Of a stretch of 64,000 nucleotides of DNA, positions 12,665 to 38,077 are shown in pieces. This DNA comes from Mucilaginibacter pallidiroseus (GTDB lineage Bacteria; Bacteroidota; Bacteroidia; Sphingobacteriales; Sphingobacteriaceae), in contig NZ_VOEJ01000003.1 in assembly GCF_007846085.1 (NCBI RefSeq), positions 1 to 64,000 of the forward strand. The letters run 5' to 3'. Position numbers and translations under genes: made by a program. Below the pieces are notes generated by a model. It was not told where the DNA came from and ran no database searches. It worked only from the letters and a program-made list of their open reading frames with translations. Every line of letters starts with the position of its first letter. Positions within the stretch are counted from its first letter, which is position 1.

Positions 12665-13738
12665 CTAATCTTTAAGCTTAAGTGCTTTCCCCGCTATGTC
12701 TTCCCATCTATAATAATGGAAAGTGCGATCGGTACTCATTACCACAAAAAGGCCGTGCTTGAACGTATCATTCAATGGTACGTTAACCACGTCCGATCCA
12801 TCGCTCTCGCGGGCCGCAACGGGCACAATTTCAAGCAGTTTATGTTCAAATGGATTTGCCTTTGTACCCTCCCGGCTAAACAACTGGAAGCGGTTTGCAC
12901 CTTGGTCAGACACCAAAATATATCCTGTACTATCTGTCAGTTTGTAAATGGAAATTCCTTCGTGGTCAACCTTAAAGCCTGTCGTACCAAATAAGGCTAA
13001 TTGCTTATTTCCTTTTGACGGATCGGCGTAATACTGGCGCACGCCAAACTGCTCGTCCGAGTAATAGATGTAGCCTAATTCGTTGTCTACAGCAATAGAT
13101 TCAATTTCCTTTTTGCCGCTATACTCGCCAAATTTACGCACCAGCGTAGCTTTTACATGGCCGGTGCCGTCATCCTCAAGCAGATACTGCCACAGGTAGC
13201 CGCCTGTTTTAGGGCCGTTTTTGCGACCTGCAATTGCATACATTTTGCCATCTTTTGCTGTGTATATCGAAATGCCCATGAGGTCGCGGTACTCAGGGCC
13301 TGTTTCGCCAACAAAAATCTCAATGCCGCCATTGTCCACAGGTTTCATGTCGGGCACCGAAAATATGCGCAGCTTATGCGTCATCCGTTCGCTGGCTACG
13401 GCAATATCTGTAGGTTTGCCATTCAACATTAAACCATACGCCAGGTCAACATTATTCGGGCGCTTTAGGTTATGCACCACCTTGTCCTGCACAATTTTAC
13501 CGTTCAAATCAAAAACATAAAGCGCGCCGTCGGCATCCTTGTCAGTTCCAATCACTAAACTTTTTGCAGGGTCGGTTTTGTTTACCCAAATGGCGGGGTC
13601 ATCACTATCATGTGCAACAGGCTCGGTAATTACGGCGGGTTTTACATCAGTAGGTAACGGCCCTTGCTGGCCGCAAGCCGTGCTCAATAAAACGATTGCA
13701 ACTACTGGCAGCGTATATAAAAGGTTACGTTTTTTCAT
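12665..13738 (-). CDS. Beta-propeller 3-phytase lipoprotein
   Basis: Hydrolyses phosphate from phytate (inositol hexakisphosphate) in a Ca2+-dependent manner; beta-propeller phytase family. The 357-residue product has a lipobox (VLLSTACGQQ), so it is an envelope lipoprotein. Family motifs: DSDDPAIWVNKTDPAKS, IGTDKDADGALYVFDLNG, RPNNVDLAYG, YYSDEQFGVRQYYADP, KVDHEGISIY and SDQGANRFQLFSREG, which carry the acidic Ca/phosphate ligands. ATG 13738 directly precedes the signal peptide; the longer frame to 13768 would overlap the upstream gene. It is the last gene of a three-gene operon, four bases after the beta-helix lipoprotein stop. Confidence 0.92.
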   Translation of the reverse strand: MKKRNLLYTLPVVAIVLLSTACGQQGPLPTDVKPAVITEPVAHDSDDPAIWVNKTDPAKSLVIGTDKDADGALYVFDLNGKIVQDKVVHNLKRPNNVDLAYGLMLNGKPTDIAVASERMTHKLRIFSVPDMKPVDNGGIEIFVGETGPEYRDLMGISIYTAKDGKMYAIAGRKNGPKTGGYLWQYLLEDDGTGHVKATLVRKFGEYSGKKEIESIAVDNELGYIYYSDEQFGVRQYYADPSKGNKQLALFGTTGFKVDHEGISIYKLTDSTGYILVSDQGANRFQLFSREGTKANPFEHKLLEIVPVAARESDGSDVVNVPLNDTFKHGLFVVMSTDRTFHYYRWEDIAGKALKLKD

Positions 13739-13742
13739 GCAA

Positions 13743-15008
13743 TTACAGTTTTGTACCATATGCACCAACGTATGTAGCCGGCTCGGGCGATACGTAAGTT
13801 AAACCATTGCTAAGCGTAATACCGGCTTTATGGTGGCGGGTAAAGCTTGTTGTACCTTTGCCTAATGCAGGCGAATTACCTTGCAAGTGAAAATCCCATG
13901 CGATATTAAAATCAGCGCTGGCAACAGGGTTGTTAAGCGGGAAGTTAACAAATTTAGGGTCGTTTTCTCCTGCTTTTGTGCCCCTTACATCATGACCGCC
14001 ACCTTCTACAACATCATTTTTACCAACCTGAAACTGATCAACCGTTGCCTGGTCAAAACCGTAGTACCAGTTGTAATCATTTTTTGAACGGTTATCTTCC
14101 AATTTCTTAGGGTCGTGCTTTATGCCAAAGCGCGTGTTTGTAAATAAGTTATTGTAAGTATCGGCACGCACGGTAGCTTCCAACCAAACAGAACCGCCTT
14201 TTGCAGTTGGCCTTCTCCAGCCCGTATTGATCATTGTATTGTTGTACGAAATGATGTAAGCCTGCGGCGTACGGTCGCCCGCATTTGATAGCTTAAGCGC
14301 GTTGGTGTTGGTAGCGTAAATAAGATTGTAGGCAACATCAGCCAAACAACCCGATTTAAAGTTCATGGCCTCGCCGCCGCTAACGCCGGTTGTGTAAAAT
14401 AGGTTGTTGGCAAAAATAATCTTGCCACCTTCAATATAAGTACAATCCTCCTGGAAGTTACGGATGGTACTGTGCTGAACTATCAGTTTACCATTTACGT
14501 TTGAAAACCAAAGTGCCGGCAGGTTTTCGCCAGCGGTAGCCTTATACAAGCCCATTTTTACCGATGTAGATGCATCCGATGTGGTTGCACCTCCGTATTC
14601 AAGTACTGTATAATCAAGTACAAGTTCGGCGCAGGTTGGTGCGGCTAATATGCCGCCCCAAAGCTTACCAAATTTATTTTCGGCAGTGCGGTAGGCATCA
14701 CTCACAGTAAACTTAACGGGGTTGTCAATAGTACCTAACGAATACAGGTTGCCTTTAACCACAATCTCGGGTTTGGCAGTGACATCCATTAATACTGTAA
14801 CACCTTCTTCGATGGTAAGTGATTTACCTTCAGGAATAATAATGTCGCCCTTTATTTCATGCACGCTGCCCTTGGTCCACACACCGGAAACCTCGCCAAT
14901 GGCAGATCCGCTTGTGGGTGTTGTATCAACATCAATGTTTGCTTTTTCGCAGCCGGCAAAAACTGTTGCCGATAGTATTATTGCTGCTATAGTTTGCTTA
15001 AACTTCAT
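13743..15008 (-). CDS. Right-handed beta-helix lipoprotein of the phytate operon
   Basis: I know no specific function. The 421-aa product has a lipobox (ILSATVFAGCEKAN) and a body of short beta-strand repeats (VKGNLYSLGTIDNPVKF, KLIVQHSTIRNFQED, KIIFANNLFYTTG, AYIISYNNTMINTGW) of the parallel beta-helix type seen in pectate-lyase-like folds, without an obvious lyase active site. It lies between the TonB receptor and phytase genes with gaps of 30 and 4 bases, so it probably acts with them at the cell surface, perhaps as the ligand-binding lipoprotein in place of a SusD. Confidence 0.8.
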   Translation of the reverse strand: MKFKQTIAAIILSATVFAGCEKANIDVDTTPTSGSAIGEVSGVWTKGSVHEIKGDIIIPEGKSLTIEEGVTVLMDVTAKPEIVVKGNLYSLGTIDNPVKFTVSDAYRTAENKFGKLWGGILAAPTCAELVLDYTVLEYGGATTSDASTSVKMGLYKATAGENLPALWFSNVNGKLIVQHSTIRNFQEDCTYIEGGKIIFANNLFYTTGVSGGEAMNFKSGCLADVAYNLIYATNTNALKLSNAGDRTPQAYIISYNNTMINTGWRRPTAKGGSVWLEATVRADTYNNLFTNTRFGIKHDPKKLEDNRSKNDYNWYYGFDQATVDQFQVGKNDVVEGGGHDVRGTKAGENDPKFVNFPLNNPVASADFNIAWDFHLQGNSPALGKGTTSFTRHHKAGITLSNGLTYVSPEPATYVGAYGTKL

Positions 15009-15038
15009 TTTGTTATGTTGTAATGTTGTTTGTATGTC

Positions 15039-17822
15039 TTAGTTAAATTTATATCGCAGGCCTATCAGATAGCTTTGGCCATAATAATCGCTGCGGATAA
15101 GGGTTTGTCCGTTTGATACCAATTGCTCTTTAATGTCATCGTTAGCGCTGTTGGTGCCTTTTATGTATAACTTCGATGGCGTGTTAAGGATGTTGTTAGC
15201 CTTTACAAATACACTTATGCCGTTTTTAAATCTTTTCTCGGCAGATGCGTCCATCTGCACAAAACCTTTTTGCCACAGATCGTTATTAAGGAATTGTGAT
15301 ACAGTATTGATACGTTCGCCAGTGTATGCACCAGCAACCTGTGCATCCCAGCCATGCTTGGTATCCTTATAAAGCAAGGAAATATTACCGATGTGAGCCG
15401 ACTGGCCATACAATGGGCGGCTTTGGTTAACTAAATAAGCTTCCTGATCGCCGGTGGTTGCATTGATTCGTCTGGCAGTTTTAGGCGTTGTAATGCGCGA
15501 GTGTGTATAGGTATAATTTGCCTTCACGCCTATTTTACTAAAGAACTTGATATAATCTATCTCGGCACCATAGTTATGCGCCGTACCAAAATTGCCCGGT
15601 GTATAATAAATATCCTGGCCACGCACTGCATCCGGCTGGAAGGTGTATTCGATAGGGTTTTTGATTCGTTTATAAAAACCGCCTACCAATAGTTGCTCTG
15701 ATGCACCCGGGAAAAGCTCGTAACGCAAATCGTAATTGTCGGCTAAGGCGCGTTTCAAATCGGGGTTACCACGCTCTTCATATTCCTCGTTAACTATTTT
15801 GCTTGGTACTATCTCGTAAAAGCCTGGTCGGTTAACCGCTTTGTAATATGATGCATGTAATTGTGCCTTATCAGTTAGGTGGTACTTTAAAGTTGCGCTT
15901 GGTAATACATCGGTATATACCTGGCTGCCTGTTGGTCTTGATTCGCCCTGCGGAAACAACAGGTTATAACCCTGGTTGGTATGCTCAACCCTGGCACCAC
16001 CAATCAACTCCAACTTATCTGCAGTAAATTTAAACATACCGTAACCGGCACCTATTTTCTCAGATGCATCGTACGTTAACGAGTTGGCTACCCCACCTTG
16101 CGGGTTACTCACAGTAAGGTTTAAATCGCTGTAGCTTTGAAAATCCACACCGTAGCGTGGTGCTGTTCCGTCGGCCTTAAGTGGTGCAAAAAGGTTGTAC
16201 TTGTTAAAGAAACCGGCTCGTTCTTTATCGCGGTATAAACCACCGGCCATAAAATCAATTTTGTTAGCACCTGATTTAATTGAGTATGTTAAATCTAAAT
16301 AACCTGCCTTGTCCTCATCAGTGTTACGCTCCCAACGGCGTTCAACCGGGTTGGTATTAACTAACGACAAGCGGGTATCCTGCCCGTTTGTGCGCAACCC
16401 GTTAACGCTTATGTTGGTATTATCCGGCACTTCGTTACGTGCCGATGAATACACGCCAGACCATTGCACCTTAAATTTATCATCAAAAAATTTGTGATCG
16501 CCATGCAACGTGGTATTGTATATCTGCTGTTCGGTTAAGCGGGCACGGGTGCTGTAAACCAATTCGGCATTGTTGCCGCCGCTTGCTGTATAAATATTGT
16601 TGTAAGTGGTAGTTACCTGGTCGCGCAGTTGCTGATTCTTCAGGTCAACATACACATTGTACAAGCTTATCTTGTTGTTCTTGTCAAACACATAATCAAT
16701 TTTTCCATGTAAGCCCAGGCGCTTTTGCTGCTCAGAATATTCGCGATAGCTTTTGCTGGTGATTTTGGCGAAGGCATCCGTACCGTCTACAGCTGAATTA
16801 TAAAATGTGCTATTGCTACCGCGGTAAGTGTTTTGATAGCTACCGGCTACTATAACGCCTAATTTGCTGTCAAAAAAACGCTGACCAATTGATATGCTTC
16901 CGATAGCGTTAGGAGCAGGTTTTTTGGATGTGTATTGTAGGGTTCCTTTGGCAAAGTCGGCCTGCGTTGCATTATAGTTACGGCCATTGATCTCATAGGG
17001 CGACTTATGACTTATGCCTGATGCGTCGTAACTGGTAAAGTTACGGTCGAAAAATAATTGGCTGTAACCGGTAGCGATATTGGCATTGATCTGGAAATGA
17101 TCTGGTGCGTTTTTCATTACCATATTTACCGCACCGCCAATAGCATCGCCCTCAAGGTTTGGCGTAAGTGTTTTATAAACCTCAAGCCTGTCCAATAGGT
17201 CAGACGGGAACAGATCTAATGGTACATAACGGTATTTATTATCAGGACTGGGAATTTTCACACCGTTCACAAGCGTGTAATTATAGCGTTTATCCATACC
17301 GCGCAGAATGGCGTACTGGCCATCACCGTTGCTGTTACGCTCGATAGAAACGCCGGAAACACGTTGCATTACGTTAGCCACAGTTAAGTCCGGAGATACT
17401 TCTATGGATTTGCCTGATACGATATTCATCACCTGTGTAGCATTTTGTTCGATACGGCGTGCATCGCGGTCATTTGAGCCTGATGCGGTTGCCCTGACAG
17501 TTACTTCACCTAAATCTTTCCCGGCCGATTCCATGTAGAATTTAACATGTGGGTTATCTTCTTTTAAAACAGTCACATCCCGAGTGATGGTTTTATAAGT
17601 GATATAAGATACGCGAAGTGTTACCTGCCCTACCTTAAGGCCTTTTAATTCGAATGATCCGTCTAAACCGGTGCTGGTTGCCTGGCCTGTGTTTGAAGAG
17701 ATGGTGGCACCAACCAGGGGCTCGCCGCTTTGTTTATCATATACGTGCCCCTTGATATGTGCAGCACTTAGGGTTGCTGCAGTTAACATGAGGGGTATTA
17801 ATACTTGTAAAAGTTTTTTCAT
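15039..17822 (-). CDS. TonB-dependent receptor of the phytate operon
   Basis: Outer-membrane active transporter, about 927 aa from ATG 17822. Order: signal peptide (LLQVLIPLMLTAATLSAA), carboxypeptidase-like regulatory domain (IKGHVYDKQSGEPLVGATIS, to about residue 100), plug (VANVMQRVSGVSIERN; ILRGMDKRYNYTLVNGVKIPSP; LEVYKTLTPNLEGDAIGGAVNM) and barrel ending in GLRYKFN. The plug signature is that of the class often annotated as TonB-dependent receptors without a SusD partner. Linkage to a phytase implies import of phytate or lower inositol phosphates (inference). A Pho-box-like repeat lies about 210 bp upstream. Confidence 0.9.
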   Translation of the reverse strand: MKKLLQVLIPLMLTAATLSAAHIKGHVYDKQSGEPLVGATISSNTGQATSTGLDGSFELKGLKVGQVTLRVSYITYKTITRDVTVLKEDNPHVKFYMESAGKDLGEVTVRATASGSNDRDARRIEQNATQVMNIVSGKSIEVSPDLTVANVMQRVSGVSIERNSNGDGQYAILRGMDKRYNYTLVNGVKIPSPDNKYRYVPLDLFPSDLLDRLEVYKTLTPNLEGDAIGGAVNMVMKNAPDHFQINANIATGYSQLFFDRNFTSYDASGISHKSPYEINGRNYNATQADFAKGTLQYTSKKPAPNAIGSISIGQRFFDSKLGVIVAGSYQNTYRGSNSTFYNSAVDGTDAFAKITSKSYREYSEQQKRLGLHGKIDYVFDKNNKISLYNVYVDLKNQQLRDQVTTTYNNIYTASGGNNAELVYSTRARLTEQQIYNTTLHGDHKFFDDKFKVQWSGVYSSARNEVPDNTNISVNGLRTNGQDTRLSLVNTNPVERRWERNTDEDKAGYLDLTYSIKSGANKIDFMAGGLYRDKERAGFFNKYNLFAPLKADGTAPRYGVDFQSYSDLNLTVSNPQGGVANSLTYDASEKIGAGYGMFKFTADKLELIGGARVEHTNQGYNLLFPQGESRPTGSQVYTDVLPSATLKYHLTDKAQLHASYYKAVNRPGFYEIVPSKIVNEEYEERGNPDLKRALADNYDLRYELFPGASEQLLVGGFYKRIKNPIEYTFQPDAVRGQDIYYTPGNFGTAHNYGAEIDYIKFFSKIGVKANYTYTHSRITTPKTARRINATTGDQEAYLVNQSRPLYGQSAHIGNISLLYKDTKHGWDAQVAGAYTGERINTVSQFLNNDLWQKGFVQMDASAEKRFKNGISVFVKANNILNTPSKLYIKGTNSANDDIKEQLVSNGQTLIRSDYYGQSYLIGLRYKFN

Positions 17823-18015
17823 TGCTTTTAATGGGTTGCGTTGTGTCAATAGTTTTTGTTCGACACTGCAAAGGTGTAACGCCCCGTGTAACGAATGAAA
17901 TTTTAACAGTTACATAAAAGCAACAGCGTTACGTACAGCATATACACAAAAGCAACATTAATACACAATACACTTATTTACAGATATTTAATGAGTTAAA
18001 AAAGCGCCGTTATGC

Positions 18016-20829: not shown

Positions 20830-21921
20830 TTACTTAGCAACTGTTACGGTACTTATAGCACTGCCTACTTCATGGCCTGCTGATTTTTTGAAATCAAAGC
20901 CAAATAATTGGGCAATGGTTTGTGCCAGTTGCTTATGGTAGGTTACGGTTGCTGTTTTTACTTCGCCGGTTGGCGGGGTATCCGGGCCGATAACGGCAAA
21001 CCAGGTTTGCTCAGCACCCTTTACATCGGCACCATGGTTGCGCCAGCCATCGCTTTCGCCGCGGCCATGGTCGCAGGTAATTAAGAGGGTTGTTTTATCT
21101 TTATAAAATGGATCGGCCTGTACCATGTTCCATAAGTTCATTATAAAGCCATCTTCCTGTTTTGCGCGTGCCAGGTAATCTTTATAGTTGCCCTCGTGAG
21201 CCATATCATCCGTTTCATCAAAGGCCATATACAGCACGCGTGGTTTGTATTGCTTTATATATTCCTTGCTAAACTCGTAAGTAATAAAGTCTGACCGGGT
21301 AGAGTCGCCTATATATTTGGGCGTGCTGTGCTGCAACTCGTTCAGGTACTTCAATCGAGGGTTTGCATCTGCATTTTTAAGCTCGGCATAACCCGAATAT
21401 ACCGGCAAGCCTGATCTACCAACATTTAAAATCTGAGGAAACCTTTCCCATGATGAAAAGGCAATCACCTTACCTTCAAAACCTTTTTGCTTGTTTATAA
21501 ACTCCAGCACATTCATGTTTGGGTTAACAATAGGGTCATTGGTATTCATCCGCACATCGGGGAAGCCGGTAAATATTTCGTTATAGCCAGGGTACGAAAA
21601 GCGGTATTGATTGGCCAGCTCATCTTTATTCCCTAAATCGCGGTTACCGTAAAGCTGCCCTTTTTTGGCTACTACATTCCATAAAAACGGGAACAGCATT
21701 TCGCGTCGTGCTGTTGCCGTAGCGGCCCAGTACTTCTTCCTCACATCATCTTTATCGCTGGTATATTTTGAATTTACCAGGCCCGAGTCGGCCCCTCTGA
21801 AAACTTCCTGCCAGCGCATACCGTCAAGCGTTACAATGATGAGGTTTTTGGTTTGGCGGTTTTGGGCGGTAACTGTTAAAGCACTTGCAGCCAAAACCAG
21901 TACAGCAAATAATTTTTTCAT
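20830..21921 (-). CDS. Exported alkaline-phosphatase-superfamily hydrolase (phosphodiesterase or phosphonate-ester hydrolase)
   Basis: Periplasmic two-metal hydrolase, 363 aa, with a signal peptide (FAVLVLAASALTVTAQ). Metal ligands typical of the nucleotide pyrophosphatase/phosphonoacetate hydrolase branch are visible: Asp33 (VTLDGMRW), a nucleophile segment SYPGYNE (Ser109), Asp238 and His242 (DETDDMAHE), Asp284-His285 (CDHGRG) and a late His (TYHKQLAQT). The substrate is not evident; context with SusC/SusD and phosphonate catabolism suggests it frees a phosphonate from an ester or glycan (inference). It follows SusD by 62 bp, but a strong terminator-like hairpin stands between them (21934-21967). 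Confidence 0.8.
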   Translation of the reverse strand: MKKLFAVLVLAASALTVTAQNRQTKNLIIVTLDGMRWQEVFRGADSGLVNSKYTSDKDDVRKKYWAATATARREMLFPFLWNVVAKKGQLYGNRDLGNKDELANQYRFSYPGYNEIFTGFPDVRMNTNDPIVNPNMNVLEFINKQKGFEGKVIAFSSWERFPQILNVGRSGLPVYSGYAELKNADANPRLKYLNELQHSTPKYIGDSTRSDFITYEFSKEYIKQYKPRVLYMAFDETDDMAHEGNYKDYLARAKQEDGFIMNLWNMVQADPFYKDKTTLLITCDHGRGESDGWRNHGADVKGAEQTWFAVIGPDTPPTGEVKTATVTYHKQLAQTIAQLFGFDFKKSAGHEVGSAISTVTVAK

Positions 21922-21933
21922 AAAAAGTATATT

Positions 21934-21967
21934 AAAAAAGCATGGCCGTTATTGCTAACGGCCATGC
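21934..21967 (-). terminator. Intercistronic terminator/attenuator after SusD
   Basis: A perfect 12-bp stem GCATGGCCGTTA / TAACGGCCATGC (21940-21951, 21956-21967), 4-base loop, followed on the minus strand by six T (21934-21939), only 18 bp upstream of the hydrolase ATG. It should lower, not abolish, expression of the hydrolase relative to SusCD, or protect the SusCD mRNA 3' end. Confidence 0.8.
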
Positions 21968-21983
21968 TTGTAAAACAGGTGAA

Positions 21984-23585
21984 TTATTTTAGTATCCACA
22001 TGATACCATTAATATCGTCGTTACCACCAAACTGGCTATCGAGCGCTTTTTGATAGTTTGCCGAATTGGCCGTACGCTCTGATGATGGATACTGGAAACG
22101 TGTTGCTATACGTGTACCGTTACCTGTGCCGGGGCCGGTAGTAAACGTTGGCACACCGGTACGGCGATAAGTAAAGTAAGATTCCAGACCAGAGTGGCGG
22201 AACAGCGCCAGGTATCTTTGCTGCAAAATTTTGGTTAAACCAGCGCCATCCGCAGTGTATTTTACTGTGGCCTGGTTGTAATACGTTGCAAAGTTAGCCG
22301 CAATGCTGTAGGTATCGTAATTACCTGCAACAGATACGCTTGTTGAACCAGGGCGGTAGAAGTAGGCCGTAAATGAGCCTGTTTCTGGGATACCGTATGA
22401 TTGCATTGACGCTTTTATACCGTTTTGGTAATAGGTCTCGGCACTTGCGCCGCTTGCCCAGCCGCGGTTTAAGCCTTCGGCGATGTTAAACATCATTTCA
22501 GGAAAACCAATTTGTATAGCAGGCTCGCCTGTGTAGGTCGAGTAGAAATGCTTGCGGTTAAGGAACGAGTAACGCTGTAAACCGGCATTGTTATACATTA
22601 CGCTCAAATCCAAACCCGGGTCGGCGCCTACAAATGATGCAAAATCAGTAGGGCTTTGCTTTTGCTCATCAACCAGATAACGCGAAGGCTCAGCAGTTAC
22701 AAACACGCGCGGGTCCTTTAAGCTGGTAAGCAAACCAACATAAGTTGCAGACATGTTTTTACGTGACCCGCTCTGGCCAAAGTTATTCGGGTTTTGCGGG
22801 TAGTAATTATTTGGCTCACGGAAAACGTATTGCAGGTTATCGGCGTTGCTACTCATCAATGGATACTTTGATGGAGATGCCAGGATGGCCGCAAAGCGCG
22901 AAACTACTTTAAGGTCGGTATCAGCAGTTTTTTTGCTTAAGGCAACTAATAAACGCAGTTGCAAAGCATTAACTGCCTTTTGCCATTTGGTAAGGTCGTT
23001 AGCAAAATAGATATCGTTTTTAAGGGTAGCGCCTTCGCCGCTTCCAAAGTTGCCTGGGTTAGCTATTAACTGCCCTAAATCATCATTAGCGCTATCCAGC
23101 CATTGTAGTGATTGCAGCATTACGGCCTTTTGCGAATCATAAGCTGGGTTTAACTTGTCCAGCCCCTGCAACGCCTCGGTCATCGGGATGTCGCCCATTT
23201 CAAGGCTCATCTTGCTAAATAAGTACGCCTTAAAAAACTTACCGAGCGCCTCGTACGGGTTTATGGCAGCACCACCTGTAGCGGCAGCTTGCTTTTCCAT
23301 CTCCTGCACGTTTTTTAATATGGTATAATAGTTATCGCCGGCACCCAGGTCATAACGGTTGTTACCGTAATAATCGTAGTTATAAAGGTAGTATTGTGCG
23401 TATATCTCCTTTTGGCCATCGGGTGTTTCGGCAATGCTGTTTAGCACACCATTAAAAAGCAATGAGGCCGGTACCGAGTTCGGCACGTTTTGGTTTTGGG
23501 TAAGCTCGTCAAAGCTCTTTTTACAACCCGTTACTGATAACAGCAACGCTGCAGGCAGTATATATTTTTTTAATATCGTTTTCAT
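21984..23585 (-). CDS. SusD-like outer-membrane lipoprotein (SusD-like 2 type)
   Basis: Surface ligand-binding lipoprotein that caps the partner SusC, 533 aa. Lipobox LLLSVTGCKKSF, then DELTQNQNVPNSVPASLLFNG, the characteristic start of the SusD-like 2 group, which often handles ligands other than starch. Helical TPR-like segments follow (LGKFFKAYLFSKMSLEMGDIPMTEAL; KWQKAVNALQLRLLVALSKK). It lies 25 bp downstream of SusC. Context argues for a phosphonate-containing ligand (inference). Confidence 0.9.
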   Translation of the reverse strand: MKTILKKYILPAALLLSVTGCKKSFDELTQNQNVPNSVPASLLFNGVLNSIAETPDGQKEIYAQYYLYNYDYYGNNRYDLGAGDNYYTILKNVQEMEKQAAATGGAAINPYEALGKFFKAYLFSKMSLEMGDIPMTEALQGLDKLNPAYDSQKAVMLQSLQWLDSANDDLGQLIANPGNFGSGEGATLKNDIYFANDLTKWQKAVNALQLRLLVALSKKTADTDLKVVSRFAAILASPSKYPLMSSNADNLQYVFREPNNYYPQNPNNFGQSGSRKNMSATYVGLLTSLKDPRVFVTAEPSRYLVDEQKQSPTDFASFVGADPGLDLSVMYNNAGLQRYSFLNRKHFYSTYTGEPAIQIGFPEMMFNIAEGLNRGWASGASAETYYQNGIKASMQSYGIPETGSFTAYFYRPGSTSVSVAGNYDTYSIAANFATYYNQATVKYTADGAGLTKILQQRYLALFRHSGLESYFTYRRTGVPTFTTGPGTGNGTRIATRFQYPSSERTANSANYQKALDSQFGGNDDINGIMWILK

Positions 23586-23610
23586 TTTTTACTGATGATC
23601 AGTGTTTTGC

Positions 23611-26600
23611 TTAGAATGATACATTAAGGTTTAAACCGTAGCTACGTACCGTTGGCGATTGCAGGCCTGTTGAGCCGGATGCATAGTTGTACTGGTCAAG
23701 GTCAACATCCTTAAAGCGTTTGTCTTTATAGAAGTAAAGCAGGTTACGGCCATATAACGATACCGATGCTTTTTGGATAAAGGTTCTGGCTAACATGGTT
23801 TTAGGAAAATCGAAACCAATGGTAACCTCACGCAACTTCGAGTATGTTTTGCTCATTAAGTTGGCTTCGTCCACATTGTAATATGAGCTTACGTAACCCT
23901 GTACAAATGATGTAGCCGTATTTGGCGCATATTGCAATTGGTTGTAGTTAAGCACTGCACCTGTTTTTGAATCGTAGTTGATAGACTGCCCGTTTGAAAT
24001 AACAACACCTTCGCCTACGTAGCTGCCATTGTAACCTGTTTTGCCAAAGTTTGACCAATCCTGGAAACGTGCTGCACCAAGTGCGCCTTCGGCAGTTTCT
24101 GCATTAGCGCCGCCACGCATGGTTTTGTTGTGCATGTAATCAACAATAACACCACCAACCGAGCCATCAAACTGGAACGAGAAGCTTAGGTTTTTATACC
24201 TGAATTTGTTATAGATACTCCATGAATAGTTTGAGTTCATGTTACCCAGGAACTGGGCTACCGGGCTCGAAAGCGGTTTACCGGCCGCATCATTTATGAT
24301 CTGGCCATCAGGTGTGCGTACAAATGCCGATCCGTATAATTTGTCTGTACGATCGCCTGCTTTAAAGAAGGTTTGGTAAGTATCCTGGCCTGCAGGCAAC
24401 TCTTTATAAATCTCTTTGAAAGTTGATATGTTTGCCAACACATCCCAGCTAAAGCCGCCCATGTTTTTGATAGGCGTACCCATGATAGAGCCTTCGTAAC
24501 CTGTCTTTTTGGTTTTTAAAGCGTTTAGGTACTCAACAGTGTAACCTGTAGCACTTGATATAACGTTGGGCAAAATGCGCGGACCATCGATATATTGGAA
24601 CGCGGTACCTGAGAAGCCCAAACGGTTCGCCAGGAATTTAATATCAAAACCTTCCTCGTAGTTTACGCGGGTTGATGTTTTAATACCGTTTTGGTACAAA
24701 TAATCTGTAGCGTAACCTGCCGTTTGGCTGTTATAAGGTTTACTTGTAGAGAATGAAGTATTTAAAGAATAATCAGGGCCGTTGTACGGAGATGTGTAGG
24801 TAGAGCCATAACCCAGCGGATTATTAAATAATGATGCACCTGTGCCGCCACCGTAAACAGTGATTGAGCTAAACGGAGCCGGGCCGATAGTTGTTGATGT
24901 AGCATCAGAACGAATGTTTGAGTATGATGCCCTGCCTTTTAAGAAAGTAATAAACTCAGGCATTTTTATATAATCAGACACTACGGTAGCTACCGATACG
25001 CTTGGATAGAAATAGGTTGTAGGCACCTGAAAAGCGGACGATTTATCGATACGGCCGGTGCTTGAGATGGTTGCATATTTACCAAAGCTGGCGTCTAATG
25101 AATAATACGCACTTAATACGCGCATATCCGAGCTGAAGCTGGTTGCCTGCACCGGGTTCATCGAGTTACTGAATGAGTACACACCCGGTACGTTCAAATA
25201 ATCTGTCGATGCCCAGTTTGAGTTGTAGCTTAAGTTACGCATGTTTCCACCTACGGTACCCGATAAGTTCAGAAACTTTTTAACGGTATAATCGTAGTTG
25301 ATCATCAACTCCGTATTGTTGTCAAAAAGGTTGCGGCGGTCTTCGCGGTAGTCGCCAAGGTTACCTTCACGTCCGTAAGGGTGTGCCGAATAAGGCATTT
25401 TTTCGGTGCGAAGGATATTGTAGGTATTGATAGCCGAACGCAAAGTAGCATTTAGGTTATTATTGATTTTGTAGTTAGCAGAAAGATAGCCGTATGTATC
25501 ATTTTTGTAATGACCGCGGGTCCACTCTTTTACCATAAACCATGGGTTGTGGTAACGGGTATACTCTGCAAATTGCTGTTGTATACCTACTTTACCTGGC
25601 TGCCAAATGGCTTTAATATCCGGTGCGTTAACATCCCAATCGGCACCTGTCCATATAGCCAGGTTGTATATTAAGCTGTTAGGGCCGTAGCTTACATCCG
25701 GGAAATTATCTGTTGTTTGGCGGTTAAAGCTCACGTTACCTTCAAACTTCCAGCGCGGGTTAGGGCTAAATGCAGCGTAGATATTAGCATTGGCAATATC
25801 AAGGTACTGCTCAGGTATGTAGCTATTTTGGTGCTGCTGCGATGCCGAGAAGCGTACGTTGTAGTTATCGCCATTGGCACTTAATGCAACGTTATTGTTG
25901 GTTTGGTAACCCGTGCGCAAAAAGTTGTTAAGGTTATTTGCGCCACGAGCGGTGTAAGGAGTAGCCTGACGAACGCCGTTGATAATAGGGCTATCGTATT
26001 GCTCAATTAGCTGGCCATTAAAATATGGACCCCAAACGTCATAATCGGCATCCACACCACCCGGTGCACCACCTTTACCGTCAACAAATTTATAGTAGGT
26101 ATTCTCGCCTGCGCCGTATGATTTTTGCACACGCGGGAAAGCAAGGAAACCGCTATTAATAACGGTACTGCTGTTAATATCAACCGTTAAACCTTTTTTG
26201 TTCTTGTTGCCTTTTTTAGTGGTTATTAATATAGCGCCATATGATGCACGGTTACCATAAAGTGCCGCAGCGGCAGGGCCCTTTAATACTGTGTAAGTTT
26301 CAATATCATCCGGGCTGATGTTGTAGGTGTCCGTATTGATAGGGAAACCATCTACCACGTATAAAGATATCTGGTTACCACGTATCCTTACGCTTGGCGC
26401 ACCCAGCAACTCTGCAGAGGGGCCAACTGATAAACCGGCTACTTTACCGATAAGGCCTGTAACCGGGTTAGGGTCGCGGGCTACGGTAAGGTCTTCGCCG
26501 GTTACGGTTGATACTGCGTAACCTACGCGGCGGGTTTCTTTCTTAACACCCAAGGCAGTCACTACCACTTCGTTAAGTGTTTTGCTGTCGCCTTTTAAAT

Positions 26601-26889
26601 TAACCACCATGGTATTGCCGGTACCAACAGTTGCTTCTTGCTGGGCAAAACCTAAAAATTTAAACGTCAAAACCTGGCCGGGGCTGGCATTGATAATAAA
26701 CCTTCCGTACACATCTGTAGTTGTGCCCTGGTTAGTTCCCTTAACCATAACACTTACGCCTGGCAGCGGCTGTCTGGTTTCATCATTTACTGTACCCGTA
26801 ATTTTTGTTTGAGCAAACAAAAAGAGGGGCGTAAGGCTACACACGAGTAAAAGTGCAAGCTTCTTTAAATTAGGGTAAAAGTGTTTCAT
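23611..26889 (-). CDS. SusC/RagA TonB-linked outer-membrane transporter
   Basis: TonB-energised outer-membrane importer, 1092 aa. Order: signal peptide (LALLLVCSLTPLFLFAQ), carboxypeptidase-like regulatory domain (ITGTVNDETRQPLPGVSVMVKG, to about residue 105), plug (EVVVTALGVKKE; VAGLSVGPSAELLGAPSVRIRGN; YVVDGFPI; VLKGPAAAALYGNRASYGAILITTKKG) and barrel to the C-terminal LNLNVSF. It heads an operon with SusD and an alkaline-phosphatase-superfamily hydrolase. A TACTTTTG -7 box (26932-26939) and a pair of GTTTA-N7-TAAAC sites lie upstream. Those sites recur at the transporter and phosphonatase genes, which links this importer to phosphonate use. Confidence 0.93.
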   Translation of the reverse strand: MKHFYPNLKKLALLLVCSLTPLFLFAQTKITGTVNDETRQPLPGVSVMVKGTNQGTTTDVYGRFIINASPGQVLTFKFLGFAQQEATVGTGNTMVVNLKGDSKTLNEVVVTALGVKKETRRVGYAVSTVTGEDLTVARDPNPVTGLIGKVAGLSVGPSAELLGAPSVRIRGNQISLYVVDGFPINTDTYNISPDDIETYTVLKGPAAAALYGNRASYGAILITTKKGNKNKKGLTVDINSSTVINSGFLAFPRVQKSYGAGENTYYKFVDGKGGAPGGVDADYDVWGPYFNGQLIEQYDSPIINGVRQATPYTARGANNLNNFLRTGYQTNNNVALSANGDNYNVRFSASQQHQNSYIPEQYLDIANANIYAAFSPNPRWKFEGNVSFNRQTTDNFPDVSYGPNSLIYNLAIWTGADWDVNAPDIKAIWQPGKVGIQQQFAEYTRYHNPWFMVKEWTRGHYKNDTYGYLSANYKINNNLNATLRSAINTYNILRTEKMPYSAHPYGREGNLGDYREDRRNLFDNNTELMINYDYTVKKFLNLSGTVGGNMRNLSYNSNWASTDYLNVPGVYSFSNSMNPVQATSFSSDMRVLSAYYSLDASFGKYATISSTGRIDKSSAFQVPTTYFYPSVSVATVVSDYIKMPEFITFLKGRASYSNIRSDATSTTIGPAPFSSITVYGGGTGASLFNNPLGYGSTYTSPYNGPDYSLNTSFSTSKPYNSQTAGYATDYLYQNGIKTSTRVNYEEGFDIKFLANRLGFSGTAFQYIDGPRILPNVISSATGYTVEYLNALKTKKTGYEGSIMGTPIKNMGGFSWDVLANISTFKEIYKELPAGQDTYQTFFKAGDRTDKLYGSAFVRTPDGQIINDAAGKPLSSPVAQFLGNMNSNYSWSIYNKFRYKNLSFSFQFDGSVGGVIVDYMHNKTMRGGANAETAEGALGAARFQDWSNFGKTGYNGSYVGEGVVISNGQSINYDSKTGAVLNYNQLQYAPNTATSFVQGYVSSYYNVDEANLMSKTYSKLREVTIGFDFPKTMLARTFIQKASVSLYGRNLLYFYKDKRFKDVDLDQYNYASGSTGLQSPTVRSYGLNLNVSF

Positions 26890-26945: not shown

Positions 26946-26982
26946 GTTTATTATTACTAAACTAAGTTTATATTAATTAAAC
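26946..26982. promoter_or_regulatory. Tandem GTTTA-N7-TAAAC operators at the SusC promoter
   Basis: Two 17-bp dyads: GTTTA-TTATTAC-TAAAC (26946-26962) and GTTTA-TATTAAT-TAAAC (26966-26982; extended to AAGTTTA/TAAACTT, 26964-26984). Their centres are 20 bp apart, that is, on the same face of the helix. Spacing and sequence are the same as at 28413-28449. Confidence 0.75.
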
Positions 26983-27067: not shown

Positions 27068-27655
27068 TTACAGTGTAGTTTTTTGTGACTGCAAATGGCT
27101 TATAGACTTTTGCTTAAGTTCCTGGATATTGATAACCGGGATGTTTTCAAGCTTTGCTTCGTCATCCCAATGCCTAAAACGAATTATCAGATCTTTATCG
27201 GGATTAGCCTCAAATGTGGCAGCCTCTACTACAGACATTACGCCACCCTGAAAGTTGAGCGTAGCCCTGCTTGCAGGAGACAGCTTAGCAAAGTAATCGG
27301 GATATTTAAAGGTAAGGTAACGCTTGGCTACTACGTGGCTTTGTACAAGGCTTGCAACACGAGCCGAATAACCAAGGTTAAGGAGATAGTCGGCGCCCAG
27401 TTTTTCATGCTCAACATTACCCATACCATCCATGCTTTCGGCTTCGCCCTGTGCGGCGCATAAATGGCCTATATCGTGGAAAAAGGCAGCAAGTACTACT
27501 TCGTCGTCATAGCCCTCAGCCTGGGCTAAAGCAGCGGCCTGCGCCATGTGCTCAAGCTGAGACACGGGCTCGCCAATGTAATCTTCATCTCCGTGCAGCT
27601 CATATAAAGCAAACACCTTTTCGGTAATTTCCTGCGGGCTTAGTTTGGGGGGCAT
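27068..27655 (-). CDS. phnZ: PhnZ-like HD-domain phosphonate oxygenase
   Basis: Predicted mixed-valent di-iron oxygenase cleaving the C-P bond of a 1-hydroxyphosphonate; PhnZ turns (R)-1-hydroxy-2-aminoethylphosphonate into glycine and phosphate. Cytosolic, 195 aa, the family length. The diagnostic segment YIGEPVSQLEHMAQ carries Tyr26 and Glu29 (Tyr24/Glu27 of PhnZ), Gln33 and His36; iron ligands are His60-Asp61 (FFHDIGHL), His64, His83 (VEHEKLGADYL), His107 (SHVVAKRYL) and a late Asp (FRHWDDEAK). No PhnY-type dioxygenase gene is nearby to make the usual substrate. It has its own promoter with a Pho-box-like repeat, divergent from the XRE-cupin gene. Confidence 0.85.
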   Translation of the reverse strand: MPPKLSPQEITEKVFALYELHGDEDYIGEPVSQLEHMAQAAALAQAEGYDDEVVLAAFFHDIGHLCAAQGEAESMDGMGNVEHEKLGADYLLNLGYSARVASLVQSHVVAKRYLTFKYPDYFAKLSPASRATLNFQGGVMSVVEAATFEANPDKDLIIRFRHWDDEAKLENIPVINIQELKQKSISHLQSQKTTL

Positions 27656-27704: not shown

Positions 27705-27803
27705 CCTCTATCATATAATTTATCGCGGCGTTTTTTGTGAGCGTATTTGTGATAGTTTGATTTAATGTATAATTTTCGGCCATACAACCAGTTATAATGA
27801 TTG

Positions 27804-28391
27804 ATGGAAGACGATATACTTATACAGATAAGCAACCGTATTAAAGAGCGACGTCGCGAAAAAAACATTACTGTACAGGAACTTGCCAGCCAGGCAAATG
27901 TAAGTAAAGGCCTTATTTCGCAGATCGAAAACAGCCGTACTATCCCCTCTCTGATTGTATTGATCGATATTATTCGCGCACTCGACATAGACCTGAATGT
28001 ATTTTTTCAGGATATTAAAAGCCGTGAACGCAACTTCCCGCTTATTATTAAACGGAAAGATGAGTACGAACGCTTTGAAAAAGAAGACACTGAAGGATTT
28101 CATTATAGCCGTATTTTTACCCAGCTTATTAAAAATTCCACTATTGACATCGTAATCCTTGAGCTTGAACCAAATGCCAGGCGCCCGCTTGTGCAAACAG
28201 AGGCCTATGAGTATAAGTACATCATTAGCGGAGAGATTGAATATTTATTTGGCGATGATAGCACCCACACGCTTTACCAGGGCGACAGCATGCTTTTTGA
28301 TGGGCGCATTTCCCACACTCCCCGCAATGTAGGCAAAGGGAATGCAACTATGCTGGTCATCTATTTCTTTGAAGAGAAGCAGAACAATTAA
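27804..28391 (+). CDS. XRE-family regulator with C-terminal cupin sensor
   Basis: Cytosolic transcription regulator, 195 aa. A helix-turn-helix occupies about residues 6-60 (RIKERRREKNITVQELASQANVSKGLISQIENSRTIPS) and a cupin effector domain about 105-185 (LELEPNARRPLVQTEAYEYKYIISGEIEYLFGDD, YQGDSMLFDGRISHTPRNVG). It lies between the PhnZ-like gene (divergent) and the transporter operon (same strand), so it is the natural candidate to bind the GTTTA-N7-TAAAC sites and sense a phosphonate or breakdown product (inference). Its own promoter region shows no clear copy of that site. ATG 27804 is used; a TTG is directly in front. Confidence 0.88.
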   Translation: MEDDILIQISNRIKERRREKNITVQELASQANVSKGLISQIENSRTIPSLIVLIDIIRALDIDLNVFFQDIKSRERNFPLIIKRKDEYERFEKEDTEGFHYSRIFTQLIKNSTIDIVILELEPNARRPLVQTEAYEYKYIISGEIEYLFGDDSTHTLYQGDSMLFDGRISHTPRNVGKGNATMLVIYFFEEKQNN

Positions 28392-28397
28392 ACATAA

Positions 28398-28416
28398 GTT
28401 AACATACCCTTAGTTT
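28398..28416 (+). promoter_or_regulatory. Weak Pho-box-like repeat upstream of the transporter operon
   Basis: Plus strand GTTAACATACCCTTAGTTT has the first unit TTAACAT intact and a degenerate second unit 11 bp on. It overlaps the first GTTTA-N7-TAAAC site by four bases. On its own this would not be convincing. Confidence 0.3.
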
Positions 28417-28450
28417 ATAATTAATAAACATAGTTTATAATTGCTAAACA
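28411..28450. promoter_or_regulatory. Tandem GTTTA-N7-TAAAC operators upstream of the transporter operon
   Basis: Two 20-bp direct repeats with 18/20 identity (TAGTTTATAATTAATAAACA and TAGTTTATAATTGCTAAACA), each containing one dyad: 28413-28429 and 28433-28449, centres 20 bp apart. The arrangement is the same as at the SusC promoter. Confidence 0.78.
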
Positions 28451-28499: not shown

Positions 28500-29810
28500 A
28501 TGTTGCTGTTAAATAGGCTAAGGCCTTTTGCAGCCAAGCTGCCCTATCCTGTTATATCTGTATTAGCAGGGCTAGCAGCTTTCGGAGCTTATACCTCTAT
28601 GTATGCCTTTCGCAGGGCTTTTGCCGCCGGTACTTTTGCCGGGCAGCAATATCTGCATGTAGATTATAAAGCATGGTTGGTTATAGCCCAGGTGTTGGGC
28701 TATATGTTAAGCAAATTTTACGGCATCCGTTTTATTGCAGAGGTTAAGGCCCAAAACCGCGGGCGATATGTTTTAATGCTGGTTGGCATATCCTGGCTTG
28801 CCTTACTGGCTTTCGCTTTTATTCCGGCTCCTTATAATATTGTTTGCCTGTTTGTAAACGGCTTTCCGCTTGGCATGATCTGGGGATTGGTGTTCGGCTA
28901 CCTTGAAGGCCGCCGGGCTACAGAGTTTATGGCTGCTGTGTTGTCTATAAGTCTTATTTTCGCTTCGGGCTTTGTAAAAACTGTAGGCCGTACCCTGCTT
29001 ACCAGCTTTCATGTAAACGAGTTTTTGATGCCATTTGCAACGGGGGCAATATTTGTTTTGCCCTTGATATTATTTGTACTATGCCTTGAAGCCCTGCCTC
29101 CACCAACAGCGCAAGACAAGCAGCAGCGTACCGAACGCCGTAGCATGCCCCCGCATGAGCGCCGGGCATTTATAATACGGTTTTTACCGGGCATTATACT
29201 TACCGTAATAGTATACCTGATGCTAACCATTATGCGCGACGTAAGGGACAACTTCGAGGTGGAAATTTGGCACGGGCTGGGCATAAAGAACAATGCAATT
29301 TTTACCAGCATAGATAGTATTATTTCTTTAATTGTATTGGCTGGCATGGGCCTACTTATCCTTGTAAAAAACAACTTAAAAGCTTTCGGTATCATTCACC
29401 TTTTTATCATAGGCGGATGTATTTTGGCCGGCGTTGCAACATTGCTCTTTAATGCCAAAACCATTGAACCAATTACGTGGATGACACTTGCGGGCCTTGG
29501 CTTATATGCCGGTTATGTACCTTACAATGCTATATTTTTTGAAAGGATGATAGCTTCTTTCCAATGCAAAAGCAATGTCGGCTTTATTATGTATGTAGCA
29601 GATGCCATTGGCTACCTTGGCAGCATAAGCGTATTATTGGTTAAAGAGTTAGGCAACCCAGGCGTTAGCTGGGATGTATTTTTTAAAGACGGCTTATTAA
29701 TTCTGTCCGTTGTGGGCAGCATAAGCGCTACATTTTCATTAATATACTTTTGGCAAAGCGCACGCCGTAGCCGCGTGCAGGCCAAACCTTTAAAGTTTTC
29801 AGCAATATGA
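28500..29810 (+). CDS. DUF5690 family MFS-like transporter
   Basis: Inner-membrane carrier of 436 aa with about 12 helices (e.g. VISVLAGLAAFGAYTSMYAF, YVLMLVGISWLALLAFAFIP, FLMPFATGAIFVLPLILFVL, IIHLFIIGGCILAGVATLLF). It matches the DUF5690 group of MFS-type proteins, which are found with phosphonate genes. The start AYTSMYAFRRAFAAG resembles the organophosphate:phosphate antiporter opening, so phosphonate uptake across the inner membrane is plausible (inference). Its stop overlaps the start of the FAD oxidoreductase gene by four bases (ATGA), giving a coupled two-gene operon behind the operator pair at 28411-28450. Confidence 0.85.
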   Translation: MLLLNRLRPFAAKLPYPVISVLAGLAAFGAYTSMYAFRRAFAAGTFAGQQYLHVDYKAWLVIAQVLGYMLSKFYGIRFIAEVKAQNRGRYVLMLVGISWLALLAFAFIPAPYNIVCLFVNGFPLGMIWGLVFGYLEGRRATEFMAAVLSISLIFASGFVKTVGRTLLTSFHVNEFLMPFATGAIFVLPLILFVLCLEALPPPTAQDKQQRTERRSMPPHERRAFIIRFLPGIILTVIVYLMLTIMRDVRDNFEVEIWHGLGIKNNAIFTSIDSIISLIVLAGMGLLILVKNNLKAFGIIHLFIIGGCILAGVATLLFNAKTIEPITWMTLAGLGLYAGYVPYNAIFFERMIASFQCKSNVGFIMYVADAIGYLGSISVLLVKELGNPGVSWDVFFKDGLLILSVVGSISATFSLIYFWQSARRSRVQAKPLKFSAI

Positions 29811-30934
29811 GTAACAGATCTGCCATAGTGATTGGCGCAGGTATAGTTGGCCTTGCAACGGCACGAGCATTGGCTACACGCGGCGTTAAAGTAACCGTTT
29901 TTGAACGTAACGAGCGCGCGGTAGGTGCATCCATTCGTAACTTTGGTATGGTATGGCCGATAGGGCAACCAACCGGGCCTTTGTTCGACAGGGCGATGCT
30001 ATCAAGAAGTATTTGGAAACAAATTTGCACCGAAGCAAACATCTGGCATGATGAGGTTGGCTCATTACACCTAGCGTATCAGGATGACGAAGTGGAGGTG
30101 ATGCAGCAATATGCTGATGTTAATAGCAGCCTGCGCGACTGTTCATTACTTACTCCGCAACAGGCATTGTTAAAATCTGAGGCGGTTAACCCCAATGGCT
30201 TAAAAGGCGCTTTGTGGAGTGGTACCGAAATGATTGTTGAGGCGCGCGAGGCCATAGGCCATGTGGCCGCCTACTTAGTCGAAAAACACGGCGTAACGTT
30301 TAATTGGAACACGGCCATAAGCGAAGTGAAAGGCAATACGGTAACCTCCGGACAACGCAGCTGGCAGGCCGATGAAGTATTTGTTTGCAGCGGCACCGAG
30401 TTTGAAACTTTATACCCGGAGCTTTTTGCAGCCGCCCCCCTCACAAAATGCAAATTGCAAATGATGCGCATGGCCGCCCAGCCCAATAACTGGCGCATTG
30501 GCCCTTCGCTTTGTGGTAGCTTATCAATGGTGCACTACCCCGGCTTTCAATCGGCAGCATCATTACCCGCACTACGTAAACGGTACGAAGAACAATACGC
30601 CGAGTATTTAAAATGGGGGATCCATGTGATGGTTTCGCAAAACCATTTGGGAGAATTAACCGTGGGCGACTCGCACGAGTATGGCCTGGTGCATGACCCA
30701 TTTGATAAGGAGTTTATCAATACCATGATTGTAGATTACTTAAAAACTTTCACCGCACTTAAGGATACCCGGATCATACAAACCTGGAACGGCATCTACC
30801 CAAAGCTAACTAACGGCAAAACGGAGTTGATTTTGGAACCCGAACCCGGCGTTACCATCATTAACGGGCTTGGCGGTAACGGCATGACTCTATCGTTTGG
30901 GCTCTGCGAGGAACTGATAGCAGCAAAATATTAA
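29807..30934 (+). CDS. TIGR03364-type FAD-dependent amine oxidoreductase
   Basis: Flavoenzyme of the glycine/D-amino-acid oxidase (DAO) fold, 375 aa, cytosolic. The dinucleotide motif is VIGAGIVGLATARAL at the N terminus, followed by GASIRNFGMVWPIGQPTGP, the signature of the TIGR03364 group that recurs with phosphonate genes. The C-terminal NGLGGNGMTLSFGLCEEL closes the FAD site. Expected role: oxidative deamination of an (N-substituted) aminoethylphosphonate to phosphonoacetaldehyde, feeding the phosphonatase-like hydrolase encoded next to it on the other strand (inference from family context). Coupled to the transporter gene by a 4-bp overlap. Confidence 0.88.
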   Translation: MSNRSAIVIGAGIVGLATARALATRGVKVTVFERNERAVGASIRNFGMVWPIGQPTGPLFDRAMLSRSIWKQICTEANIWHDEVGSLHLAYQDDEVEVMQQYADVNSSLRDCSLLTPQQALLKSEAVNPNGLKGALWSGTEMIVEAREAIGHVAAYLVEKHGVTFNWNTAISEVKGNTVTSGQRSWQADEVFVCSGTEFETLYPELFAAAPLTKCKLQMMRMAAQPNNWRIGPSLCGSLSMVHYPGFQSAASLPALRKRYEEQYAEYLKWGIHVMVSQNHLGELTVGDSHEYGLVHDPFDKEFINTMIVDYLKTFTALKDTRIIQTWNGIYPKLTNGKTELILEPEPGVTIINGLGGNGMTLSFGLCEELIAAKY

Positions 30935-30993: not shown

Positions 30994-31668
30994 TTAAATA
31001 AGCTCCAACAGTTCCTGCAAATTATTGATTATGTGATCTGGGTTTGCTGCCTGTAATTGGTCAAACGTGTGGGCGCCTGTGGTGATACCTATGCTCATGG
31101 CACAGCCCGCGTTTTTACCTTCTTCAATATCTATTACCGAGTCGCCAACTTTAACAATTTGAATTGGCTCGACATTAAACTTATTGGCAGCCATCAAAAT
31201 CATATCAGGCGCGGGGCGGCCGTTGCTTACATCGCTTGCAGTAATCAATTCATCATACTCCCGGCCTTTTTGCCAGCCCAGTTTATCAACTATAGTTTTG
31301 GCAACACGCCCGCTGTAGCCGGTGTTTAACACAACTGCGATGCCTTTCTGCTTAAGTGCAGTAAATGTCGCCAAAGCACCTGGTTGAGGTGCTATCTCGC
31401 TATTGCTATAAGCATGATCTAATCCTGTAGCAAAATCGGCAAAGATGGTTAAAGCAACCTGCTCATCCGTAACATCGGCTTTTTTTAATAATATACTTTT
31501 TATGGCCTGAAGCTTTTCCATACCTGCACCAACTTCAAGTACATCGTTAAGTGAAACGCTATACCCGGCGTTTAATATTGCCTTATGCAACGTTTTATAA
31601 ACTATGTTCTGCTCATCTATTGTTGTTCCCGCCATATCGAAAACAACCATCTTTATTAAAATAGCCAT
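30994..31668 (-). CDS. Phosphonatase-like HAD hydrolase (PhnX-like)
   Basis: HAD-superfamily hydrolase of 224 aa in the TIGR03351/PhnX-like group; PhnX cleaves phosphonoacetaldehyde to acetaldehyde and phosphate through a Schiff-base Lys. Visible: nucleophile Asp11 in VVFDMAGTTIDE, cap-domain VGAGMEKLQAIKS with Lys52 at the place of the catalytic Lys53 of PhnX, LNTGYSG (motif II) and VKVGDSVIDIEEGKNAG (motifs III-IV). Cytosolic. It is monocistronic, convergent with the FAD oxidoreductase gene, and its -7 box lies within a perfect operator palindrome (31678-31696). Confidence 0.85.
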   Translation of the reverse strand: MAILIKMVVFDMAGTTIDEQNIVYKTLHKAILNAGYSVSLNDVLEVGAGMEKLQAIKSILLKKADVTDEQVALTIFADFATGLDHAYSNSEIAPQPGALATFTALKQKGIAVVLNTGYSGRVAKTIVDKLGWQKGREYDELITASDVSNGRPAPDMILMAANKFNVEPIQIVKVGDSVIDIEEGKNAGCAMSIGITTGAHTFDQLQAANPDHIINNLQELLELI

Positions 31669-31677: not shown

Positions 31678-31696
31678 TGTTTAGCAAAACTAAACA
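31678..31696 (-). promoter_or_regulatory. Single GTTTA-N7-TAAAC operator overlapping the phosphonatase -7 box
   Basis: TGTTTAGCAAAACTAAACA is a perfect 7-5-7 palindrome. Read on the minus strand it contains TAGTTTTG, a full match to the -7 consensus TAnnTTTG, so a bound protein would block RNA polymerase. It lies 9 bp before the ATG at 31668. The core GTTTA-N7-TAAAC is the same as at 26946-26982 and 28413-28449. Confidence 0.72.
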
Positions 31697-34793: not shown

Positions 34794-34842
34794 GCAAGAT
34801 TTTTGCTGAACATATTTTTGTAAACACCTCTTTTACAACGTC

Positions 34843-38067: not shown

Positions 38068-38077
38068 TTTATAAAAC

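Follow-up and report, generated by a model that had tools for sequence, protein, structure and literature searches.

In a 64,000-nucleotide stretch of the Mucilaginibacter pallidiroseus genome (positions 1 to 64,000 of contig NZ_VOEJ01000003.1; the window), an operon encoding a SusC-like transporter, a SusD-like lipoprotein and a secreted hydrolase was found next to genes for phosphonate breakdown. Judging from the sequence, SusCD and the hydrolase are very likely members of the phosphonate regulon. The fuller reading is probable: in it, the operon serves a regulon for 2-aminoethylphosphonate (AEP)-type compounds as its outer-membrane and periplasmic arm, shares the operator of that regulon and handles ester-linked aminophosphonate. 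Membership was deduced because the linkage was conserved despite reshuffled gene order, a tandem operator was limited to two promoters in the genome, and this operator also preceded a susCD operon unlinked to the phosphonate genes. The preliminary description of the locus had likewise placed SusCD and the hydrolase in a phosphonate system, and these observations support it well.

The three open reading frames were confirmed on the minus strand at the positions first described: susC at 23611..26889, susD at 21984..23585 and the hydrolase gene at 20830..21921. The TonB-dependent transporter SusC matched TIGR04056 (431 bits, cut-off 368), SusD matched PF12771 (205 bits), and the two genes lay side by side, 25 bp apart, as expected of a SusCD importer. 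The lipobox cysteine of SusD (Cys21) was invariant in 54 of 54 aligned SusDs, and the SusD profile matched solved SusD homologues (3mx3, E = 4e-104). Beyond susC lay genes for a PhnZ-type HD oxygenase (27068..27655, minus), an XRE helix-turn-helix and cupin regulator (27801..28391, plus), a DUF5690 (PF18943) membrane protein (28500..29810, plus), a TIGR03364 FAD oxidoreductase (29807..30934, plus) and a PhnX-like HAD hydrolase (30994..31668, minus).

Six copies of the motif GTTTA-N7-TAAAC were counted in the window where 0.27 would be expected, and none of 100 shuffles reached six. Even with two mismatches allowed, a tandem pair of the motif (20-bp period) was present exactly twice in the 4.25-Mb genome, at 26946..26982, 56 bp upstream of the susC start codon, and at 28413..28449, 50 bp upstream of the start codon of DUF5690 in the DUF5690-FAD operon. 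A single copy (31679..31695) was located 10 bp upstream of the HAD start codon. The reversed control pattern gave no tandem pairs genome-wide, and single sites numbered 19 versus 9 for the control.

A hydrolase search with one genome per species returned 208 relatives, the best 80 of which were kept as loci; linkage rates are thus conditional on the hydrolase. The closest relatives were Mucilaginibacter and Pedobacter. In 22 of the closest 23 loci (L002-L024, 64-81% identity) the FAD, DUF5690 and HD genes were within 11 kb, and one locus was cut by a contig end. Many loci of Chitinophagaceae type (48-57% identity) had phosphonate genes downstream of and codirectional with the hydrolase, versus divergent and upstream, so gene order was reshuffled while the association was kept. 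Sixty loci had flanks no shorter than 9 and 8.5 kb; 42 of these had both SusD and phosphonate genes nearby, none SusD alone, two phosphonate genes alone and 16 neither. In 37 of the loci with both, no more than 400 bp separated the end of susD from the hydrolase. Each of the two traits needed six changes on a tree of 101 hydrolases, and in independent pairs both changed in the same direction in 4.8 of 6 on average and never in opposite directions. Where the FAD pathway was missing (L038, L043, L050, L054), the hydrolase adjoined PhnA and PhnW; in L050, PhnA, phosphonoacetaldehyde dehydrogenase, PhnW and PbfA all scored above their model cut-offs. The common denominator of the linked pathways is AEP-type compounds.

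An ordinary glycan locus that adjoins the phosphonate genes by chance was rejected as extremely improbable. Other SusCD pairs do occur in the window, one of them beside a GH76 gene, but conserved linkage with changed order, the shared operator and the operator at an unlinked susCD operon speak against chance. Nor was any glycoside hydrolase family matched between 20830 and 31668 with Pfam and NCBIfam models, in line with the claim that the operon carries none. The SusCD locus with the GH76 enzyme (33192-41167), which also has a DUF6377 regulator and adjoins the phosphonate locus, is separate and probably serves mannan; a single operator copy at 40261, within the GH76 gene, was taken as chance.

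In loci of Sphingobacteriaceae type (L002-L025, with L025 and L128 being one sequence and counted once), the operator preceded susC in all 23 loci and a phosphonate gene in every one except L020 (22 of 23). Across 807 kb of L002-L025 and L089-L104, 109 real sites were counted, with each of five altered patterns giving between 0 and 7. At least 29 exact tandem pairs were found in the order, and all those among the matches listed lay near the FAD gene on its contig. Away from the locus, 11 stretches with pairs from among the matches listed were examined, and eight had the tandem pair at fitting genes, as predicted. In G003, on a contig other than that of the FAD operon, XRE-cupin and HD genes were followed by the pair, susC, susD and a propeller-phosphoesterase gene. 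In G092 the pair was flanked on one side by PhnA (74% identity) and on the other by a divergent operon for an ECF sigma factor, FecR, SusC and SusD, and similar sigma-led SusCD operons followed the pair in G109 and G049, the latter also with a HAD relative nearby; sigma, FecR, SusC and SusD were confirmed with Pfam in G092 and partly in G109 and G049. The pair preceded susC/susD relatives in G149, HAD relatives in G034 and G044, and DUF5690 in G061, whereas G133 (pair beside XRE-cupin), G066 and G009 were weak or negative cases. The SusCD of these sigma-led operons behind the tandem operator (stretches L174, L177, divergent from PhnA, and L179) is of another type, so the regulon may have taken in a second SusCD lineage. 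Two distant hydrolase genes unlinked to FAD (G086, G056) had an operator site upstream. Three of the same 11 stretches support the regulon weakly or not at all: L180 had no phosphonate, HAD or SusCD gene at the site, in L171 the site came after a gene resembling the propeller-phosphoesterase (27% identity) and no listed gene lay ahead of it, and in L173 it was between the end of an XRE-cupin gene and a mechanosensitive-channel gene.

The hydrolase (363 aa) had a signal-peptide-like N-terminus. Its Pfam matches were below threshold (PF01676, 22.1 vs 24.3; PF01663, 21.2 vs 23), and no NCBIfam model matched at E 0.001. Its structure was modelled with 74 aligned sequences out of 101 hydrolases, a total that counts the one in the window (L023, L052 and L123 were dropped from the residue alignment by length and stop filters), with a mean pLDDT of 94.1. 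The predicted fold was that of the alkaline phosphatase superfamily and, together with the conserved ligands, agrees with the two-metal enzyme first proposed. PafA ranked top in VIA-align (Z 29.7, root mean square deviation 3.1 Å, 297 residues), followed by SPAP, Xac NPP (Z 26.4), NPP1 and the alkaline sphingomyelinase ENPP7 (25.9); the phosphonate monoester hydrolase (PMH) of B. caryophylli (25.0) and ENPP6 (24.9) ranked lower. The hydrolase has the fold and two-metal site in common with PafA, the NPP/ENPP6/ENPP7 enzymes and PMH, but was only 13-18% identical to PafA, Xac NPP, ENPP7, PMH and ENPP6 and had a nucleophile motif of its own, S-Y-P-G. The active-site residues named in the preliminary description were all correct: D33, S109, H242, D284 and H285 were invariant in 72/72 phosphonate-linked and 15/15 unlinked relatives, and D238 was present in 71/72 and 15/15. 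H296, which had not been named, was also invariant (72/72 and 15/15). By analogy, S109 would be the nucleophile.

The PafA active-site lysine has a role in monoester binding. The hydrolase stretch KVIGIALKDRGGIL aligned ungapped with K151-L165 of PafA proteins taken from relatives, and the position of this lysine was Trp158 in 74/74 hydrolases. The PafA arginine position was Val in 38/74, Arg in 18/74 (window included) and Ala in 9/74. Profile-profile alignment was weak: PafA aligned over the first 42 residues only (probability 32%), PhnA reached 1%, and NPP reached 92% in a stretch with many gaps. The lysine/tryptophan comparison therefore rests on the ungapped motif as read by eye. At the level of sequence, the exchange hints at a diester-type or bulky monoester substrate. 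Three assignments were rejected. The hydrolase was not a PafA phosphatase, as NF042991 gave no match and the K-x-R motif was missing. It was not the phosphonoacetate hydrolase PhnA either (no match to TIGR02335 in NCBIfam at E 0.001). Formylglycine-type PMH and sulfatases have the nucleophile signature C/S-x-P-x-R; the hydrolase had S109-Y-P-G-Y, with position 113 being Tyr in 70/74 and Arg in 4/74.

Several results weigh against the proposed role. The operator was rare in loci of Chitinophagaceae type (L026-L081), where it preceded susC in 3/29 and phosphonate genes in 1/42; the switch thus belongs to Sphingobacteriaceae, and Chitinophagaceae must have another or a diverged one. Unlinked hydrolase genes (L109-L127) mostly had no operator: among the 18 that could be scored it was present at one, and L117, which lies at the start of a contig, is a further case. 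The independent-pairs test gave p = 0.0625, which is not under 0.05. Some hydrolases of the family are unlinked, a few of them next to phosphorus-type genes of other kinds, so the enzyme could be a general phosphoesterase. In L032, L064 and L071, hydrolase relatives were located beside a TonB receptor and a polygalacturonase-like gene, with SusCD and phosphonate genes not in reach, a setting that suggests another phosphorus context for the family. The fold ranking does not separate monoesterases from diesterases. Finally, in 151 genomes of the order, which included 39 with the hydrolase and 62 with TIGR03364, the latter exceeded 390 bits in 37; the hydrolase was within 13 kb in only 21 of these and absent nearby in 16. 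None of the 25 genomes with lower-scoring TIGR03364 had the hydrolase near on the same contig.

Phosphonate clusters without the hydrolase were examined in these 16 and in four of the lower-scoring genomes, several of them in extended stretches. Close susC-susD relatives (46-82% identity) were in reach in 7 of the 20; the operator preceded susC in 6 of the 7 and a phosphonate gene in 13 of the 20. Genes for a propeller-phosphoesterase and GDPD (G021, G120, G017) or for GDPD alone (G122, G056) followed susD; G055 had a further SusCD at this place, and G134 had no cutter. The hydrolase is present in G066 and G118, where GDPD came after it. A phospholipase C gene (TIGR03396; 818 and 813 bits in the two tested, cut-off 580) was found beside the FAD gene in 10/16 clusters without the hydrolase versus 2/21 with it (Fisher, 0.001, phylogeny not controlled); in the M. 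pallidiroseus genome it was on another contig among the matches listed. As different phosphoesterases follow susD or neighbour the oxidase, SusCD and the phosphonate enzymes are the constant part and the ester cutter is the variable one. In L089-L098, this 'phosphocholine-specific' phospholipase C was encoded directly downstream of the aminophosphonate oxidase. Because it is the immediate neighbour of the oxidase in many relatives, its head-group preference may include phosphonolipids. A second secreted hydrolase of the alkaline phosphatase superfamily (PF01663) also recurred beside the clusters (L021:12007-13257, L093:13503-14738, L090, L015, L138). The phosphonate-ester ligand suggested in the preliminary description was supported indirectly, by the cutters after susD, the phospholipase C beside the oxidase and the invariant tryptophan at the PafA lysine position.

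SusCD might instead import a small phosphonate, either AEP that is free or weakly complexed or a different compound, because porin flux is too low, with the hydrolase as a side activity. The downstream enzymes indeed require only free aminophosphonate, and the SusCD-bearing clusters G134 and G055 have no cutter directly after susD. We nevertheless consider this very unlikely, since a secreted phosphoesterase directly follows susD in most sister loci, and its varying kind is as expected if cutting belongs to the function.

For ester-linked aminophosphonate, the proposed route is as follows. SusCD would bind and import a larger molecule carrying the ester, for instance a lipid or a glycan, and the secreted two-metal serine hydrolase would cut the P-O bond in the periplasm and release free AEP-like compounds. 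DUF5690 probably moves these across the inner membrane. The TIGR03364 oxidase would convert the aminophosphonate to phosphonoacetaldehyde, from which the PhnX-like HAD hydrolase would free phosphate by breaking the C-P bond. The PhnZ-type oxygenase would be a separate C-P-breaking route, for 1-hydroxy compounds. Both operons and the HAD gene would be switched together via GTTTA-N7-TAAAC; the XRE-cupin protein, whose gene lies between the operons, is the most likely regulator.

The assignments of these enzymes differed in strength. The FAD oxidoreductase matched TIGR03364, the PbfD family, with 437.7 bits (cut-off 285.1), and the HAD hydrolase matched TIGR03351 with 226.4 bits (cut-off 218.9) but scored well below the cut-off for PhnX phosphonatase proper (TIGR01422, 112 bits vs 220). 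Two types of this HAD, approximately 36% identical, swap in otherwise equal clusters (window 30994-31668; L002:2780-3451). The HD oxygenase was slightly under the cut-off of TIGR03276 (206.4 vs 214.6 bits), and its Y26, E29, H36, H60, D61, H64, H83, H107 and D164, which we take to be equivalents of PhnZ metal and substrate residues, were invariant in 64/64 sequences. No hydroxylase to feed it was found among the phosphonate genes of the window; two PhyH-family genes occurred elsewhere in the genome (63 and 45 bits). PbfD1 of A. baumannii is annotated as TIGR03364 family; in the available text of the respective papers, PbfD acts on N-methyl-AEP and AEP (PMC10590968) and PhnZ handles 1-hydroxy compounds (PMC10574752). 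DUF5690, encoded in 78/151 genomes of the order and met here mostly beside phosphonate genes, is a candidate phosphonate transporter family; no mention of it was found in the literature searched, where most subscription papers fell outside coverage.

The 62-bp spacer between susD and the hydrolase gene contained a perfect 14-bp hairpin followed by a T run (21938..21969, minus). Of 24 sister loci, all but L025 had a stable fold here with changed sequence; the spacers of L013 and L019 were long. The hairpin is a probable attenuator, with the hydrolase probably produced by read-through at a lower level than SusCD.

The nearest precedent is the phosphate utilisation system (Pus) of Flavobacterium (PusCD; PUSI, PUSII; Lidbury et al. 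2020), a system of the same kind. In the available text of PMC8115612, all six forms of PusCD co-localise with phosphomonoesterases, phosphodiesterases and phosphonate-degrading enzymes. As in Flavobacterium, the SusCD pair of M. pallidiroseus co-locates with a phosphoesterase and not with carbohydrate enzymes; a further hallmark of a Pus is induction by phosphate depletion. The M. pallidiroseus system differs in its hydrolase family, the operator shared only with the phosphonate operon, the XRE-cupin regulator gene, the AEP-type enzymes and the spread over Sphingobacteriaceae and Chitinophagaceae. A PhoA-GDPD_2 fusion was encoded upstream of the locus in L034 (2193-4103) and L037; this is the domain set given for PhoA1 of F. 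johnsoniae PUSII in PMC8115612.

This precedent leads to the strongest rival, a general phosphorus-scavenging Pus. Here SusCD would take up common phosphodiesters or phosphomonoesters from lipid head groups and polymers, phosphate would be released by the hydrolase, and the phosphonate genes would be co-regulated partners in a single response to phosphorus starvation. Besides the Flavobacterium systems, it is favoured by the phosphoesterase families that act as alternative cutters (GDPD, PF04185), the monoesterase PafA as nearest fold, and a second phosphorus-type cluster nearby (12665-17849, minus) with a beta-propeller phytase (PF02333), a polygalacturonase-like lipoprotein candidate and a TonB receptor. 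That cluster recalls PUSIII/IV of Flavobacterium, and in L022 relatives of its polygalacturonase-like gene and TonB receptor also sit after the hydrolase region. However, the tandem operator was limited to the susC and phosphonate promoters in the genome and not found at other phosphatase or phytase genes, SusD was never near the hydrolase without phosphonate genes in the 60 loci, and the PafA lysine was lost. The general system is therefore a credible but rather unlikely alternative to an AEP-dedicated one.

The cytoplasmic enzymes are of the same families as those of known AEP clusters (PbfD, PhnX, PhnWYA, PbfA, PhnZ; PMC10590968, PMC10574752, PMC12366243). The available portions of these three papers describe no outer-membrane importer or secreted ester hydrolase as part of a cluster, and the word TonB is absent from PMC10590968 and PMC12366243. 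No literature joining phosphonate, SusD and 2-aminoethylphosphonate was found in the searched corpus, which left most subscription papers outside its coverage. As far as this literature goes, the novelty lies in a form dedicated to AEP that has an operator and a regulator gene to itself, in the family of the hydrolase, in the swapping of cutters and in the occurrence across two bacterial families.

The locus pairs an AEP-type oxidase with a PhnZ-type oxygenase expecting 1-hydroxy-AEP, with no hydroxylase gene beside them, and AEP and 1-hydroxy-AEP are the two aminophosphonates reported from the lipophosphonoglycan of Acanthamoeba, at about 10% by weight (PMC3964302, available text). This led us to a speculative and itself quite unlikely extension, in which surface phosphonoglycans or phosphonolipids of soil amoebae and other protists are a food source. 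SusCD would then import lipophosphonoglycan or glycoinositolphospholipid (GIPL) fragments, from which the serine hydrolase (elsewhere GDPD, propeller-phosphoesterase or phospholipase C) would strip aminophosphonates. If true, the locus would be for phosphonate esters what a polysaccharide utilisation locus is for glycans, and it would have an operator and a regulator to itself.

According to the available text of PMC6697681, bacteria use most of their phosphonate capacity to tailor cell surfaces. Much biological phosphonate is surface-bound, and the known enzyme routes begin with free AEP. The uncharacterised hydrolase family gains an expected substrate class, and the operator motif is a DNA handle for finding further parts of the regulon. 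SusCD and a cutter under the operator of C-P-breaking genes could be a concrete, genetically separable way for soil Bacteroidota to reach bound phosphonate.

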